Source of the DNA: Fibrobacter succinogenes
Lineage (GTDB): Bacteria; Fibrobacterota; Fibrobacteria; Fibrobacterales; Fibrobacteraceae
Direction of reading: 5' to 3'
NCBI RefSeq assembly: GCF_902779965.1
Contig: NZ_CACZDK010000034.1
Coordinates: 1-60,943, forward strand
DNA: 60,943 nucleotides
Shown here: piece after piece, positions 8,844 through 38,974 of the stretch
Position numbering within the stretch: position 1 is the first letter of the stretch
Layout: each line of letters begins with the position of its first letter
The notes under the pieces: model-generated
What the model saw: the letters and a program-made list of their open reading frames with translations, nothing else
Told to the model about the DNA's origin: nothing
Databases searched by the model: none
Position numbers and translations under genes: made by a program

Positions 8844-10991
8844 ATGTCAACAGAAGCTTATCAAGCTAAGTACGGCAAGATGCTCGACCCGAAGGAAGTG
8901 TCGGTAAACCTTCCGGATGGTCGTGTCATTACGTTTGAAACTGGCCGTATCGCAAAGCAGGCACGTGGTTCTGCTGTCGCTAAGATGGGGGACGCGTTTG
9001 TCCTTTCTACCGTTTGCTACGGTGAAGAAAAGGATGGTGACTTCTTCCCTCTGACAGTTGAATATCGCGAAAAGTCTTATGCTGCCGGACGCCTGCCTGG
9101 TGGCTATAGCAAGCGCGAACCGGGTCGTCCGAGCGATGAAGAAATTCTTTCGGCTCGTATTATTGACCGCCCGATTCGTCCGATGTTCCCGGAAAACTTC
9201 ACACGTGAAGTCCAGGTCGTCGTTCAGGTTCTTTCTTCCGACAAGAAGTTCGCTCCGGACGTTCTTGGCGTGAGCGCTGCATCCCTTTCCATCGGTCTTT
9301 CTGAACTCCCGTTCGAACAGCAGGTTGCTGCTGTCCGCGTGGCTGTTGTCGATGGTCAGAACGTTGTGATGCCGACTTACGACCAGGTTGCCGTGGCCGA
9401 TCTAGACCTCGTGGTCGCCGGTACGGAAGACTCTGTTTGCATGGTCGAAGGTGGTGCTTACGAAGTGTCCGAAGACACGATGATTGGCGCAATCCTCGCT
9501 GGCCATGAAGTTATCAAGGAAATGTGCAAGGCCCAACAGCAACTGGTGGACCGCTGCTCCAAGCCGAAGATGGAACTCAAGCCGAAGTTTGTTGGTGAAG
9601 ATCATGACAAACTCGTTGCTACCGTTAAGGAAGTTGTCTGGGATGAACTGAACAAGGACGTCCACTCCAACATGGTGAAGACCGACTTCTATCCGGCTAT
9701 GGCAGACCTTTGCGCTCGCATGCTCGAAGACGCTCGCATCCTCGCTCTCATCGGCGAAGGTGAAGCTCAGGATCCGAAGCTCGCTGCTGATGCTAAGGCA
9801 ATCTTCAGCGACCTCGAACGCACTGCAATGCGCGAAATGATTTTGAACGAAGGCGTTCGTCTTGACGGCCGTACCACGACCGAAGTCCGCCCGATCGAAA
9901 TCGAAATGGGCGTGCTCCCGCGCGCTCACGGTTCTGCAATCTTCCAGCGCGGTGAAACCCAGGGTCTTGTCATTTGCACTCTTGGTACAAAGGCTGACGA
10001 ACAACGTTTCGAAAGCATGCAGGGCGAAGGCTCCAAGAGCTACATGCTCCATTACAACTTCCCGCCGTTCTCCGTCGGTGAATGCAAGAAGCTCGGCCTC
10101 TCTCGCCGTGAAATCGGTCACGGTCACTTGGCTGAACGTTCCCTCGCTGCAGTTCTTCCGCTCCCGGAAGACTTCCCTTACACCATCCGCGTGGTTTCCG
10201 AAATCATGGAATCCAACGGTTCTTCTTCCATGGCCTCTGTTTGCGGTGGCTGCCTCAGCTTGATGGACGCTGGCGTTCCTATCAAGGCTCCGGTTGCTGG
10301 TATCGCCATGGGCCTCATCTCCGAAAAGGGTTCCGTCAAGGAAGGCGGCAAGATCAAGATCTTGACCGACATTACCGGTACGGAAGACCACCTCGGCGAT
10401 ATGGACTTCAAGGTCACGGGTACTGCTGAAGGTATCACTGCATTCCAGATGGACATCAAGATCCGCGGTATCACCCCGGAACTTATGCGTGAAGCTTTGG
10501 AACAGGCTCGTCAGGGTCGTATCCACATTCTTGGCAAGATGGCTGAACTTGGCCTCGCTGCACCGCGTCCGAAGGTTTCCGACAAGGCTCCGACGATGCT
10601 CAAGATGCACATCCCGACCACGAAGATCCGTGACGTTATCGGTTCTGGTGGTTCCGTCATCAAGGGCATGCAGGCTCAAACGGGTTGCACCATCAACATC
10701 GATGATAACGGCAATATCGACATCGCCGCCCCGACGGGTAAGGCTGGTGAAGTTTGCCGCCGCATGATCGAAGAACTCACTGCAGAACCGGAACCGGGCC
10801 GCAAGTACAAGGGCAAGGTCAAGACGATCCAGCCGTTTGGCGCATTCGTCGAAATCCTCCCGGGTCGCGACGGCCTCGTGCACATCTCCGTGAAGCTTTC
10901 TATCAAGGCTTTGCTCCCGCCGAAACCGGCTGCTCCGGCTGCCGATGCTGCTCCGGAAGCTTCGGCTCCTGAAGCTCCGACCGAAGCATAG
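8844..10991 (+). CDS. pnp: Polynucleotide phosphorylase with truncated S1 domain
   Basis: 715 aa. A phosphorolytic 3'-5' exoribonuclease of the RNA degradosome type. Two RNase PH domains are intact (GRLPGGYSKREPGRPSDEE; the second with GRTTTEVRPIEIEMGVLPRAHGSAIF and the DITGTEDHLGDMDFK metal-site region), followed by the KH domain (IPTTKIRDVIGSGGSVIKGM). The C-terminal S1 domain starts normally (GKVKTIQPFGAFVEI ... GLVHIS, to residue 682) but jumps straight to VKLSIKALLPP, so roughly 35 residues of the S1 barrel are missing in frame. An Ala/Pro/Glu-rich tail follows. GGAG precedes ATG 8844. Either a real RNA-binding variant or a local deletion in this assembly. Confidence 0.96.
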   Translation: MSTEAYQAKYGKMLDPKEVSVNLPDGRVITFETGRIAKQARGSAVAKMGDAFVLSTVCYGEEKDGDFFPLTVEYREKSYAAGRLPGGYSKREPGRPSDEEILSARIIDRPIRPMFPENFTREVQVVVQVLSSDKKFAPDVLGVSAASLSIGLSELPFEQQVAAVRVAVVDGQNVVMPTYDQVAVADLDLVVAGTEDSVCMVEGGAYEVSEDTMIGAILAGHEVIKEMCKAQQQLVDRCSKPKMELKPKFVGEDHDKLVATVKEVVWDELNKDVHSNMVKTDFYPAMADLCARMLEDARILALIGEGEAQDPKLAADAKAIFSDLERTAMREMILNEGVRLDGRTTTEVRPIEIEMGVLPRAHGSAIFQRGETQGLVICTLGTKADEQRFESMQGEGSKSYMLHYNFPPFSVGECKKLGLSRREIGHGHLAERSLAAVLPLPEDFPYTIRVVSEIMESNGSSSMASVCGGCLSLMDAGVPIKAPVAGIAMGLISEKGSVKEGGKIKILTDITGTEDHLGDMDFKVTGTAEGITAFQMDIKIRGITPELMREALEQARQGRIHILGKMAELGLAAPRPKVSDKAPTMLKMHIPTTKIRDVIGSGGSVIKGMQAQTGCTINIDDNGNIDIAAPTGKAGEVCRRMIEELTAEPEPGRKYKGKVKTIQPFGAFVEILPGRDGLVHISVKLSIKALLPPKPAAPAADAAPEASAPEAPTEA

Positions 10992-21430: not shown

Positions 21431-21532
21431 GTCACGAAGGCTTACGGTCGTATATTTCTTTTCGGTTTCAGCAATATAATATTCCGGATTTTCACGGATG
21501 TTGAAAATTTTTTACGCGGTAAAAGATAGAAA

Positions 21533-21565
21533 AGTAGGAAGTAGGAAGTAGGAAGTAGGAAGTAA
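21533..21565. repeat. GTAGGAA array upstream of serS
   Basis: Four tandem GTAGGAA units (TTCCTAC read toward serS). On the serS strand the array ends in TACTTTTCTATCTTTTACC, with the same layout as upstream of ilvC and ffh. Confidence 0.75.
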
Positions 21566-35854: not shown

Positions 35855-36275
35855 AGTGGGTCAAATTTAGTAAAGTAGGAAGTAGGAAGTAGGCGGTAGG
35901 AAGAAAATGTACGCGAAAATGCTTGTAACTGAGTCGTTTTGGAGCTAGTATCCTTGAAGACGTCATCCTGAACGCGAAGCGTGAAGGATCTAGTATTTTT
36001 TAAGAGGGAAGGGAGAAGTCTCTCCCTCGCTTCAGCCACGGCTTCCGCTACCCACTCTAGCGGGCTTCAGACGCCAGCCCGCAACGCCTGGCTTGAAAGT
36101 CTCGTTAGAAACGAGAATGTTCTTTACTTTATTTTAAACAAAATCTTATTGTATTTGTTTCAAAGTTTGTTTTTATTTGTGTTGCTAGGAAAAATGATTA
36201 TTCAAATGTGTATCGTGAAAAAATTGATGGATTATTTCCCTACTAAATAATTTCTGAAGTGTATAATATGAATAT
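35855..36275. other. Spacer with GTAGGAA array and REP copy 4
   Basis: GTAGGAA array at 35873-35902 abutting the ffh promoter, a REP-like GTCATCCTGAACGCGAAGCG ... GTGAAGGATCTAGT (35962-35993), and a second hairpin-rich block (GGGAGAAGTCTCTCCC; GCGGGCTTCAGACGCCAGCC). A partial TACTAAATAATTT copy lies at 36240-36253. No gene seen. Confidence 0.6.
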
Positions 36276-36306
36276 AGCAGGCCGTGTGAACGACCTGCTG
36301 TTTTTA
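36276..36306 (+). repeat. GCAGG hairpin, left copy flanking the Rpn gene
   Basis: AGCAGGCCG-TGTGAA-CGACCTGCT with a short T run. The same 24-nt hairpin with two base changes lies just after the gene at 37412. Confidence 0.75.
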
Positions 36307-36395: not shown

Positions 36396-37382
36396 ATGTA
36401 CAAGTACGCTTATCTTTTGAGCGATGGCGTTTTCAAGATTGTATTCACGGAGGAAAAGTCGCATTCGCTTCTTATTTCGCTGTTGAATGCGATGCTTGAC
36501 TTGCATGGTGGCGATGCCATCGGGGAAATTTCGCTGGAAATGCAGGAATTCCCGGGTATTTTCAATAAGAAAAACTGTATTGTCGATATCATTGGCACGA
36601 CCAATGCTGGCGAAAAAGTTCTTGTTGAAATTCAACAGCAAAAGGACAAGTTTTTCAAGGATCGCGTAGAATACTATGTCTCTCGTGTTATTGAAAATCA
36701 GGTCCATAAGAGCGAAAAATTCGAATTGCCGCATATCTATTTTCTTGGGCTTCTGGATTTTGAACTTTTTCCGGAAGAAGAACATGAATACATCCATCAT
36801 GTCGATGAAATGTGTCACGGCAAGAAGTTTTTTCCGAAGATTCAGAAGGTATTCGTGGAAATCGAAAAGTTTTTCAAACTCGAAAAATTGGGATTTACTA
36901 AGGATGACGAGTCTGATGCCGCTCAGTGGCTCCGTGCTATCAGTGTTGTTATCAAGGAAGAACCTACTCCTGAAAAAATTATGCAGAATGAAACGTTTAG
37001 GCGGTTGCTTGAATCGGTGAAATTGATTAATTTTGCAGAAGAAAGCCTTTTAAGGCGAGCGTCGCGAGAACTGCTTGCAGATTCTCATGACCGAGCCGCC
37101 ATAGGATTGCACAAAGTGCAACTTTTCAACTGCGAGGTAAAGAAAATGACGGATATGATGGCTGAACGCGAAAACGCTTTTGCCGAAGGCAAGGAAGAAG
37201 GCCGTGCCGCCGGTTTTGCCGAAGGCCGTGCAGTTGGCTTTGCTGAAGGGGCTTCTGCTGAGCGGATGAAGGCGGATCAGGAAAAACGCCAAATGGCGAA
37301 AAGTCTCAAGGAACAGAATGTAGATGTTTCTATAATCGCTAAATCGACAGGTTTTTCTGAAGAGGAAATTCGCAGTTTGTAG
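36396..37382 (+). CDS. Rpn-family PD-(D/E)XK nuclease / putative transposase
   Basis: 328 aa. N-terminal PD-(D/E)XK domain of the Rpn/PDDEXK_2 type: LLSDGVFKIVFTEE, LLISLLNAML, CIVDIIGTTNAGEKVLVEIQQQ (catalytic Asp and E-x-Q), RVEYYVSRVI. Relatives promote RecA-independent recombination or degrade DNA. The C-terminus has tandem EGR-type repeats (FAEGKEEGRAAGFAEGRAVG) and a last motif VSIIAKSTGFSEEEIRSL typical of the family. Flanked by two copies of one hairpin. Fibrobacter-type genomes tend to have several such paralogues; activity of this copy is not shown. Confidence 0.85.
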   Translation: MYKYAYLLSDGVFKIVFTEEKSHSLLISLLNAMLDLHGGDAIGEISLEMQEFPGIFNKKNCIVDIIGTTNAGEKVLVEIQQQKDKFFKDRVEYYVSRVIENQVHKSEKFELPHIYFLGLLDFELFPEEEHEYIHHVDEMCHGKKFFPKIQKVFVEIEKFFKLEKLGFTKDDESDAAQWLRAISVVIKEEPTPEKIMQNETFRRLLESVKLINFAEESLLRRASRELLADSHDRAAIGLHKVQLFNCEVKKMTDMMAERENAFAEGKEEGRAAGFAEGRAVGFAEGASAERMKADQEKRQMAKSLKEQNVDVSIIAKSTGFSEEEIRSL

Positions 37383-37408: not shown

Positions 37409-37441
37409 AAAAGCAGGCCGCGCGAACGACCTGCTTTTTTT
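37409..37441 (+). terminator. GCAGG hairpin, right copy (terminator of the Rpn gene)
   Basis: AAGCAGGCCG-CGCGAA-CGACCTGCTTTTTTT, a good terminator that also duplicates the hairpin at 36276. Confidence 0.85.
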
Positions 37442-37533
37442 GTCGTTTTTCTCGAAAATGCTAAATCTTTGGGACTTTGCCTCGAAGCCTGATTAGGTTT
37501 ACTTGACTTTGGGTACCCAAAAGAAAATTATCC

Positions 37534-37567
37534 AGTAGAAAAATTATTTTTCTACTAAATAATTTTT
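37534..37567. repeat. 34-bp palindromic direct repeat, left copy
   Basis: AGTAGAAAAATTATTTTTCT followed by ACTAAATAATTTTT; identical to 38941-38974. The stop codon of the ATPase gene falls inside this repeat. Confidence 0.85.
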
Positions 37568-38925
37568 AGAATATCTTCGGGAAGATAAGTTATGCAGTCT
37601 GCCTTCTTTGAGGGTTTCTCTTTTAAAAATAGAGCGTATGTTATTTTTTGATATTTGCTAGCGAATGGGAGCTTTTCTGTTTTTCGTTTTAAGTCTTCGA
37701 GTAATCGTTCGGCATTTTCGCTTGATGTCCACTTGCATTCGCCAATAAGCAGCGTTTTTTTGTCGATGCTTTCTGCGACTACATCTAATTCAATTCGCTC
37801 TGTTTTGCTTACATTGCCCCACCATCTGGAGGCAACATTGAATATTGTGCCGTCAATTTCGTTTCCTGTTACGGATTGTCGACAAAGGCGTTCCCAACAT
37901 GCGCCTTCGAATTCTGCCATGTGCTGGTGAATGATTTTTTCAACGGATTCGATTCGCCCAAGTTCTAAAAGGGATCGGTATGGATTTATGAACCTGTAGA
38001 AAAAGTTCATAAATGGATCGGACAAATGGTAAATTCCATGTTTGCTGCTTTTGGGGTTTTCGCCGAAGGGAATTTCACGCTCAATTAGCTGCATTTTCAC
38101 CAATTTTTGGAGAGGTGCGCTCAATGTAGCTGCATTTTTTTCTGCTCGTGCCGCAATTTCCGAAAGTCTGTTTGCCCCATTCCCAATGATGCCTAGCAAG
38201 GTCGATGCCTGCACCAAATCACGCATATCGTCGCGTAGAATATGCATGGGTTCGTCGTGTAAAACTCCGTAGGGCGATAAAGCCATTTCGCGGAGAGCCT
38301 CGTTAAAATTACGGTATTGTTCGCGTAATTCCCAATAACGGGGGACTCCTCCCCATACAGAATATTCCTTGACTGCGTCTTTGGCAGTAATTTTTAATGC
38401 GTTAGGCAAATAAGAAATAGAGATAGGTGTAAGTCTCAGTATTTCGTTTGCTCGACCGTATAATGGCGATTTTGCATCCAAGGCTATGTCGAACATCATC
38501 TGTTGTGAAGAACCGCAAATGATTAGGTTGAAATTCAGAGATTTTTCGTCAATGAGTTTCTGTAATATTGAAGGCAGGGCTTCACATGATTTTACAAGAT
38601 ATGAAAATTCGTCGAGACAAAGTGTTGTGCCTTTGTCGCAACGTTGGTTGAATGTCCTGAATAAAGATTCCCAATCGGGGTAAACGACAGCGTCGAATCC
38701 TTCGTATTTCGTGGCTATTGCCATTGCTAAAAAGCGTTTTTGGGTGGATTCTTCAGAACGATCTGCCATGAAGTAGATGTCATCTTTTTTGAGTACGCGT
38801 TTTAAAAGCGTAGATTTACCCAATCTGCGGCGTCCGTAAACAACGATAAAGGACAATTCTTTTTGAGAAAGGGCCCTTGTCAATATTTTCGTTTCTTCAA
38901 TGCGGTCAAGAAATTTCATACCCAT
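37555..38925 (-). CDS. ATP-binding protein of the archaeal ATPase / DUF234 type
   Basis: 456 aa. N-terminal P-loop ATPase: Walker A GRRRLGKSTLL (about 32-42), Walker B-like TLCLDEFSYLV, sensor region LIICGSSQQMM, then a winged helix (NRLSEIAARAEKNAATLSAPL) and a C-terminal DUF234 nuclease-like part with PD-(D/E)XK-style ELDVVAES ... LLIGECKWTSS. Such proteins are abundant, often mobile, and of unsettled function. The gene lies exactly between two identical 34-bp palindromic repeats, its stop inside the left one and its start 12 nt from the right palindrome. Confidence 0.85.
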   Translation of the reverse strand: MGMKFLDRIEETKILTRALSQKELSFIVVYGRRRLGKSTLLKRVLKKDDIYFMADRSEESTQKRFLAMAIATKYEGFDAVVYPDWESLFRTFNQRCDKGTTLCLDEFSYLVKSCEALPSILQKLIDEKSLNFNLIICGSSQQMMFDIALDAKSPLYGRANEILRLTPISISYLPNALKITAKDAVKEYSVWGGVPRYWELREQYRNFNEALREMALSPYGVLHDEPMHILRDDMRDLVQASTLLGIIGNGANRLSEIAARAEKNAATLSAPLQKLVKMQLIEREIPFGENPKSSKHGIYHLSDPFMNFFYRFINPYRSLLELGRIESVEKIIHQHMAEFEGACWERLCRQSVTGNEIDGTIFNVASRWWGNVSKTERIELDVVAESIDKKTLLIGECKWTSSENAERLLEDLKRKTEKLPFASKYQKITYALFLKEKPSKKADCITYLPEDILKII

Positions 38926-38932
38926 AATATAT

Positions 38933-38974
38933 AATTATTTAGTAGAAAAATTATTTTTCTACTAAATAATTTTT
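38933..38974. repeat. 34-bp palindromic direct repeat, right copy
   Basis: Perfect palindrome: an 18-bp arm from 38933 (AATTATTTAGTAGAAAAA), loop TTA, and the exact complement to 38971. Contains the 34-bp sequence identical to 37534-37567. Confidence 0.88.

Follow-up and report, generated by a model that had tools for sequence, protein, structure and literature searches.

A palindrome-framed ATPase-nuclease gene in Fibrobacter succinogenes: a candidate single-gene mobile unit

An ATPase gene between two palindromes

The window considered here is a stretch of 60,943 nucleotides from Fibrobacter succinogenes, contig C34 of a 4.09-Mb draft genome. It contains two copies of a 41-nt palindrome, AAATTATTTAGTAGAAAAATTATTTTTCTACTAAATAATTT, with an ATPase gene between them (Table 1). 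The copies share an identical 34-mer at 37534-37567 and 38941-38974, the exact repeat on which the original prediction was founded. That prediction gave the right copy as a perfect palindrome with 18-bp arms; the symmetry is indeed perfect, over 39 nt, but the arms (38933-38951/38953-38971) are 19 nt long. The outer arm of the other copy carries two changes, CCAG for TTAG. The last codons of the ATPase gene and its TAG stop (37557-37555) fall inside this 3'-side copy, as had been claimed. The start was placed 12 nt from the other copy, which is close: the listed ATG lies 7 nt from the promoter-side palindrome, and the likely true start, a homologue-supported ATG at 38919 (454 aa), lies 13 nt from it. 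With palindromes at 37525-37565 and 38932-38972 framing a gene at 37555-38925, the description of an almost exact repeat-gene-repeat unit holds.

Table 1. Coordinates of the palindromes, genes and putative mobile unit in the window
Feature	Coordinates	Strand	Remarks
Half palindrome (right arm and centre)	36231..36253	.	Probably a remnant; followed by a TATAAT box
Rpn-family PD-(D/E)XK gene (PF12784)	36396..37382	+	Between half palindrome and unit; in relatives also without the unit
Whole putative mobile unit, palindrome-gene-palindrome	37525..38972	-	1448 bp; homology ends at outer palindrome edges; site polymorphism
3'-side palindrome	37525..37565	.	Other end of the unit; two changes in outer arm
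ATPase_2 (PF01637) and DUF234 (PF03008) gene	37555..38925	-	456 aa; predicted AAA+ ATPase, winged helix and PD-(D/E)XK nuclease; PDC-S27-like
Promoter-side palindrome	38932..38972	.	19-nt perfect arms, 1-nt centre; one end of the unit

The palindrome pair is far beyond chance. Exact repeats of at least 25 nt in the window are limited to the 34-mer pair and one local tandem repeat, and exact repeats in shuffled windows reach at most the 18-nt class. Searching the whole 4.09-Mb genome for the 23-nt core with up to three mismatches returns three sites, and the reversed control returns none. Two further motif fragments had been proposed, at 36240 and 40494. The former is real: it matches 21 of 23 nt and comprises the palindrome's right half plus its centre. 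The latter matches in part, over about 13 nt, has 18 mismatches when the whole motif is compared, and was judged to be chance. The tandem repeat, at 21532-21564, is short, with a period of 7 and a 26-nt exact overlap.

On the minus strand the promoter-side palindrome is followed by TATATTATGGGTATG. It overlaps the likely -35 region of the ATPase promoter and sits directly upstream of a TATATT-like box, after which comes the ATPase start codon. Folded as single strands, the palindromes form hairpins of -14 to -17 kcal/mol (z about -6 to -8) with U-rich tails. Such stable, U-tailed hairpins could be read as transcription terminators, or as intergenic hairpins that flank the gene by chance, but we regard this as very improbable: the promoter-side copy lies upstream of the gene's own promoter, the palindromes have no match in Rfam, and neither perfect symmetry on both sides of the DNA, nor near-identity between species, nor exact boundaries of the unit (see below) would be expected of terminators.

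The encoded protein exceeds the Pfam gathering scores for both ATPase_2 (62.2 vs 33.2 bits) and DUF234 (56 vs 22.5 bits). Across 39 homologues the Walker A residues G31, R32, R33, R34, G36 and K37 and the DE box (D105, E106) are invariant, as are the PD-(D/E)XK residues E379, D381, E396 and K398, and winged-helix Pfam profiles match residues 237-282 of a close relative. In an AlphaFold2 model (mean pLDDT 93), residues 1-312 match the archaeal ATPases 2qen and 2fna (Z 21.9 and 20.6), with ORC/Cdc6-type DNA-binding ATPases and STAND proteins next in rank; the likeness to TnsC/MuB is at fold level only (Z about 13-14). Modelled alone (pLDDT 91), the C-terminal domain resembles PD-(D/E)XK enzymes including AF1548 (Z 10.4), Can2/Card1, EndoMS and McrC. 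The protein is predicted to join an AAA+/STAND-like ATPase and a winged helix to a C-terminal PD-(D/E)XK nuclease. Profile searches of the gene give ATPase_2/DUF234 and no transposase family, so that no conventional transposase is found inside the unit; NCBIfam and PHROGs assign no family to this ATPase. The PADLOC profile PDLC04984 (PDC-S27) matches it at 1.3e-38 and matches the B-type protein described below at 2.4e-200, both judged without PADLOC's own cut-off.

The neighbouring Rpn gene is itself bracketed by a nearly identical hairpin, GCAGGCCG...CGACCTGC, in direct orientation at 36276-36304 and 37412-37440. Its copy in genome G070 is broken because about 820 bp are missing there.

The unit in other Fibrobacteraceae

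The unit was compared across 111 genomes of the family, most of them draft MAGs, with several units lying on contigs of 4-15 kb. The palindrome is present in 17 of these genomes and a close homologue of the gene (hereafter A-type; 62-100% amino acid identity) in 12. All 12 carry the 5'-side palindrome, and the 3' palindrome covers the stop codon in nine of the 11 whose 3' end is assembled, the A-type genes of G102 and G058 being without it. Framed A-type units are 1450 bp long, except those of G000 and G070 (1448 bp). Does the palindrome, then, always pair with the ATPase? Its rarity (three in 4.09 Mb) and its linkage to the gene in 12 of 12 genomes support the pairing, but solo palindromes without a gene exist and the repeat is therefore not always accompanied by an ATPase. 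In G058 the palindrome is near-identical although the gene is only 61.7% identical in nucleotides, which points to constraint on the palindrome.

Some pairs of units share 95-98% gene identity in unrelated flanks, and their palindromes are then 90-100% identical (98-100% in pairs such as G061/G082). Outside the unit, similarity is down to near chance level within roughly 10 nt; in pairs such as G061/G082 identity falls to 0.1-0.4, immediately on the right and past the first 10 nt on the left. Near-identical units thus stand at unrelated sites with homology ending at the outer palindrome edges, in agreement with the mobile cassette originally proposed. Because the block recurs nearly unchanged at unrelated places in different bacteria, it is suggested to be a tiny mobile element, and its mobility is well supported by these comparisons. 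Left and right flanks of A-type units recur in differing combinations. Flanks of 35-115 bp are common to some copies, so that homologous recombination accounts for the movement of some of them. No constant target duplication was seen at A-type sites; variable long duplications occur near some relatives.

Gene and host histories disagree. Between G061 and G109 the gene is 97.1% identical in nucleotides vs 71.7% for ffh, and between G061 and G102, which belongs to another genus and is assembled as a single contig, 95.1% vs 76.1%; G000 and G086 give the reverse case (gene 69.7%, ffh 94.3%). Judged by these identities, the unit has been shown to cross genus lines. G057 has at least two copies, since two of its contigs begin at the same gene position and differ in their flanks. 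Homologues at a greater distance (40-56%) come mostly from Bacteroidota; Ruminococcus and Succinatimonas contribute one case each.

The sites themselves are polymorphic. The window locus lies between ffh/Rpn and a Na:alanine symporter gene. G000 and G070 carry the full unit there. In G092 the same flanking words (CAAAAG ... GAnnTTTC) enclose one degenerate solo palindrome, in G025 the flanks persist together with 16 nt of one palindrome arm, and in G075 and G018 the palindrome is absent. Empty sites in related strains, a proposed check on the original prediction, are thus found at this locus, in solo, half and palindrome-free states beside the full one. At a second locus the full unit or its 5' part is present in G019 and G033, and a solo palindrome stands in its place in G055, whose left flank is about 90% identical to theirs over 2.3 kb. 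Solo palindromes occur also in genomes where the gene was not found, and may be pre-insertion sites or scars of excision. The motif is thus rare, linked to one ATPase subfamily and polymorphic in its sites, rather than a widespread repeat with no tie to the gene.

After one perfect solo palindrome (L018 7902-7942, on contig C22 of G000) come TATATAATAAAGG and two very small ORFs, of which the second is antitoxin-like; this is possibly a regulated promoter or a recent solo insertion.

Palindromes beside related ATPase genes

A second framed gene, which provides an independent parallel, adjoins one A-type unit. It encodes a distant paralogue of the ATPase (about 23% identical), termed B-type here. 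The block that its copies in G061 and G033 have in common is exactly 1562 bp long, 98.2% identical and set in unrelated flanks; it runs from two upstream palindromes 51 bp apart (TGCCAAAT...ATTTGG type) to a third over the stop codon. In ten genomes scanned, the near-perfect B motif is almost confined to the B-type gene. At a locus of a third type (L217) an 83-nt repeat lies on both sides of the ATPase gene.

In the upstream 130 nt of 86 ATPase genes of the superfamily, an inverted repeat scoring 11 or more was present in 27, vs 6 of 184 controls (rank test p 1.4e-14), and direct repeats surrounded the gene within 1 kb in 22 of 85 cases vs 4 of 129 controls (Fisher p 1.4e-6); both enrichments refer to related genes, which are not independent events, in sets gathered by homology and palindrome searches. 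The sequence of the upstream palindrome differs by ATPase subfamily. Some of the flanking direct repeats are palindromes and others are copies, 33-846 bp long, of neighbouring sequence. Framing is confined to certain lineages, as most DUF234 ATPases of the genus are without a 3' copy. The idea that the whole family is always framed was dropped, the other DUF234 ATPases of Fibrobacter (about 30% identity) having mostly no flanking palindromes, and so was that of abundant, dispersed REP-like palindromes, the A and B palindromes being rare.

Several related loci show longer duplications. At L200 (G033:C70:15801-17228) 153 bp of neighbouring sequence are duplicated in direct orientation around a B-type unit; the two copies are 96.7% identical, and the left one abuts the unit while the right one lies about 20 bp away. 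Direct duplications of neighbouring sequence (43-111 bp) flank the ATPase gene of the Bacteroidota homologues at L264, L285, L293, L309 and L311; where checked, the copy on the 3' side of the gene belongs to an intact neighbour and the 5' copy is a fragment. The flanking repeat at L264 is the start of a response regulator gene. The related ATPase gene at L061 (G097:C67) is enclosed by direct repeats that are at least 846 bp long and 96% identical. At L075 a B-type palindrome (10513-10560) lies directly right of an A-type unit, and A units may therefore insert beside other palindromes. An AAA_14/DUF4143 gene beside one solo palindrome has a hairpin upstream only. At L092 8709-8770, an AAA_14/DUF4143 ATPase gene has an upstream interrupted palindrome (AAAAAGTGT...ACACTTTTT) and left neighbours that differ between genomes; it may be another mobile ATPase.

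What are the palindromes for? Our preferred interpretation, which we hold to be probable, takes the 1.45-kb palindrome-gene-palindrome block for a compact mobile unit with a single gene; the palindromes would form its ends and probably also the cognate DNA site of its protein. The alternative in the original prediction, a paired operator bound by the encoded protein, also fits: the promoter-side copy abuts the TATATT-like box, the protein has a predicted winged helix, and upstream palindromes that differ by subfamily recur across the family. The two readings are compatible. The palindromes could even be autoregulatory operators only, at the promoter and the 3' end and perhaps joined by DNA looping, of a horizontally spread and possibly phage-defence gene that moves by ordinary transfer and homologous recombination. 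The position of the promoter-side copy and the Pfam winged helix of the relative would suit this, as would upstream palindromes that are family-wide and differ by subfamily while the 3' copy is rare, the two upstream sites of B units and the match to PDC-S27. Plain homologous recombination would not be expected, however, to stop homology at both outer palindrome edges in independent A and B pairs, nor would operators of this sort account for solo palindromes that persist at occupied or unoccupied loci and in gene-less genomes, and on this evidence we consider a purely regulatory role unlikely.

Less probable still is a non-autonomous element in which the ATPase is cargo and the hairpin ends are recognised by a transposase, of Y1/HUH or another type, whose gene lies elsewhere, in the way that REPs are linked to RAYTs. 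Hairpin ends, solo copies, no clear target duplication and no conventional transposase inside the unit do resemble IS200/IS605- and REP-like behaviour. Yet the palindrome changes with the subtype of the ATPase (A, B and others), it is near-identical even where gene identity has dropped to about 62%, and its copy number is very low, at three in the unit's own genome. A crude regex screen of the studied loci for HUH-type transposases yielded no convincing candidate among the 14 matches listed.

Proposed movement and comparison with known systems

Under the preferred reading of a mobile unit bounded by its palindromes, the winged helix would bind the palindrome. The promoter-side copy has the position of a repressor site and would therefore probably autoregulate the ATPase gene, and the 3' copy would close the unit over the stop codon. 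The ATPase itself would then move the unit. A perfect palindrome with 19-nt arms can extrude as a cruciform, which makes cruciform cutting plausible: ATPase and nuclease would act on the palindromes, perhaps in this extruded form, and cut the unit out. Alternatively, the ATPase/nuclease would break a solo palindrome, and an occupied copy would serve as template for its repair. A solo palindrome would be left behind whenever the two palindromes recombine. A more far-reaching proposal, which we advance tentatively and think somewhat doubtful, is a new kind of mobile element in which one AAA+-winged helix-PD-(D/E)XK protein recognises its own palindromic ends, perhaps resolves them as cruciforms, and needs no DDE, tyrosine, serine or HUH transposase to move its own gene.

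In outline the unit resembles REP/RAYT systems (REPtrons), in which a gene is framed by its own palindromes and gene-less copies lie elsewhere in the genome. The REP-associated enzymes, RAYTs, are tyrosine transposases, and a genome usually holds more than 100 copies of its REPs (PMC2817692). The window unit differs in encoding an ATPase-nuclease and no Y1/HUH transposase, and in its copy number of about three palindromes in 4.09 Mb. With the archaeal proteins PABY2304 (2qen) and Sso1545 (2fna) the window protein shares its ATPase and winged-helix fold, but these matches stop at residue 312 and leave the nuclease domain outside.

In Tn7, TnsA (a PD-(D/E)XK nuclease) and TnsC (an AAA+ ATPase) act at the transposon ends. 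The window protein combines the same nuclease superfamily with an AAA+ ATPase, but its unit is without a DDE transposase and its likeness to TnsC/MuB does not extend beyond the fold. Mobile insertion cassettes and MITE-type elements carry a cargo gene between repeat ends and have no recognised transposase. The same can be said of the window unit, except that its end sequence varies with ATPase subtype. Since each end is itself a full palindrome, the ends are direct and inverted repeats at once.

The same domain architecture is found in the PDC-S27 proteins, a single-gene phage-defence candidate in which an ATPase is fused to PD-(D/E)XK, with validation pending for most PDCs (PMC12988326). The available portions of that description mention no palindromic ends or mobile unit, and a literature search that excluded most subscription journals found no palindromic ends described for the ATPase_2/DUF234/PDC-S27 family. 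Among defence candidates still to be validated, PDC-S27 genes belong to the most frequent: one survey counts 3503 detections in archaea and 4562 in bacteria (PMC12988326), and they are common in rumen bacteria (PMC13356809). Palindrome-bounded members would add a further reason for the patchiness of PDC-S27 and its adjacency to mobile DNA, and the palindrome would supply this protein family with a specific DNA target. Were the protein to move its own gene, transposition would here have a chemistry based on palindromic DNA and an ATPase-coupled PD-(D/E)XK nuclease, and the abundant PDC-S27 genes of bacteria and archaea would include selfish elements and not only defence genes.
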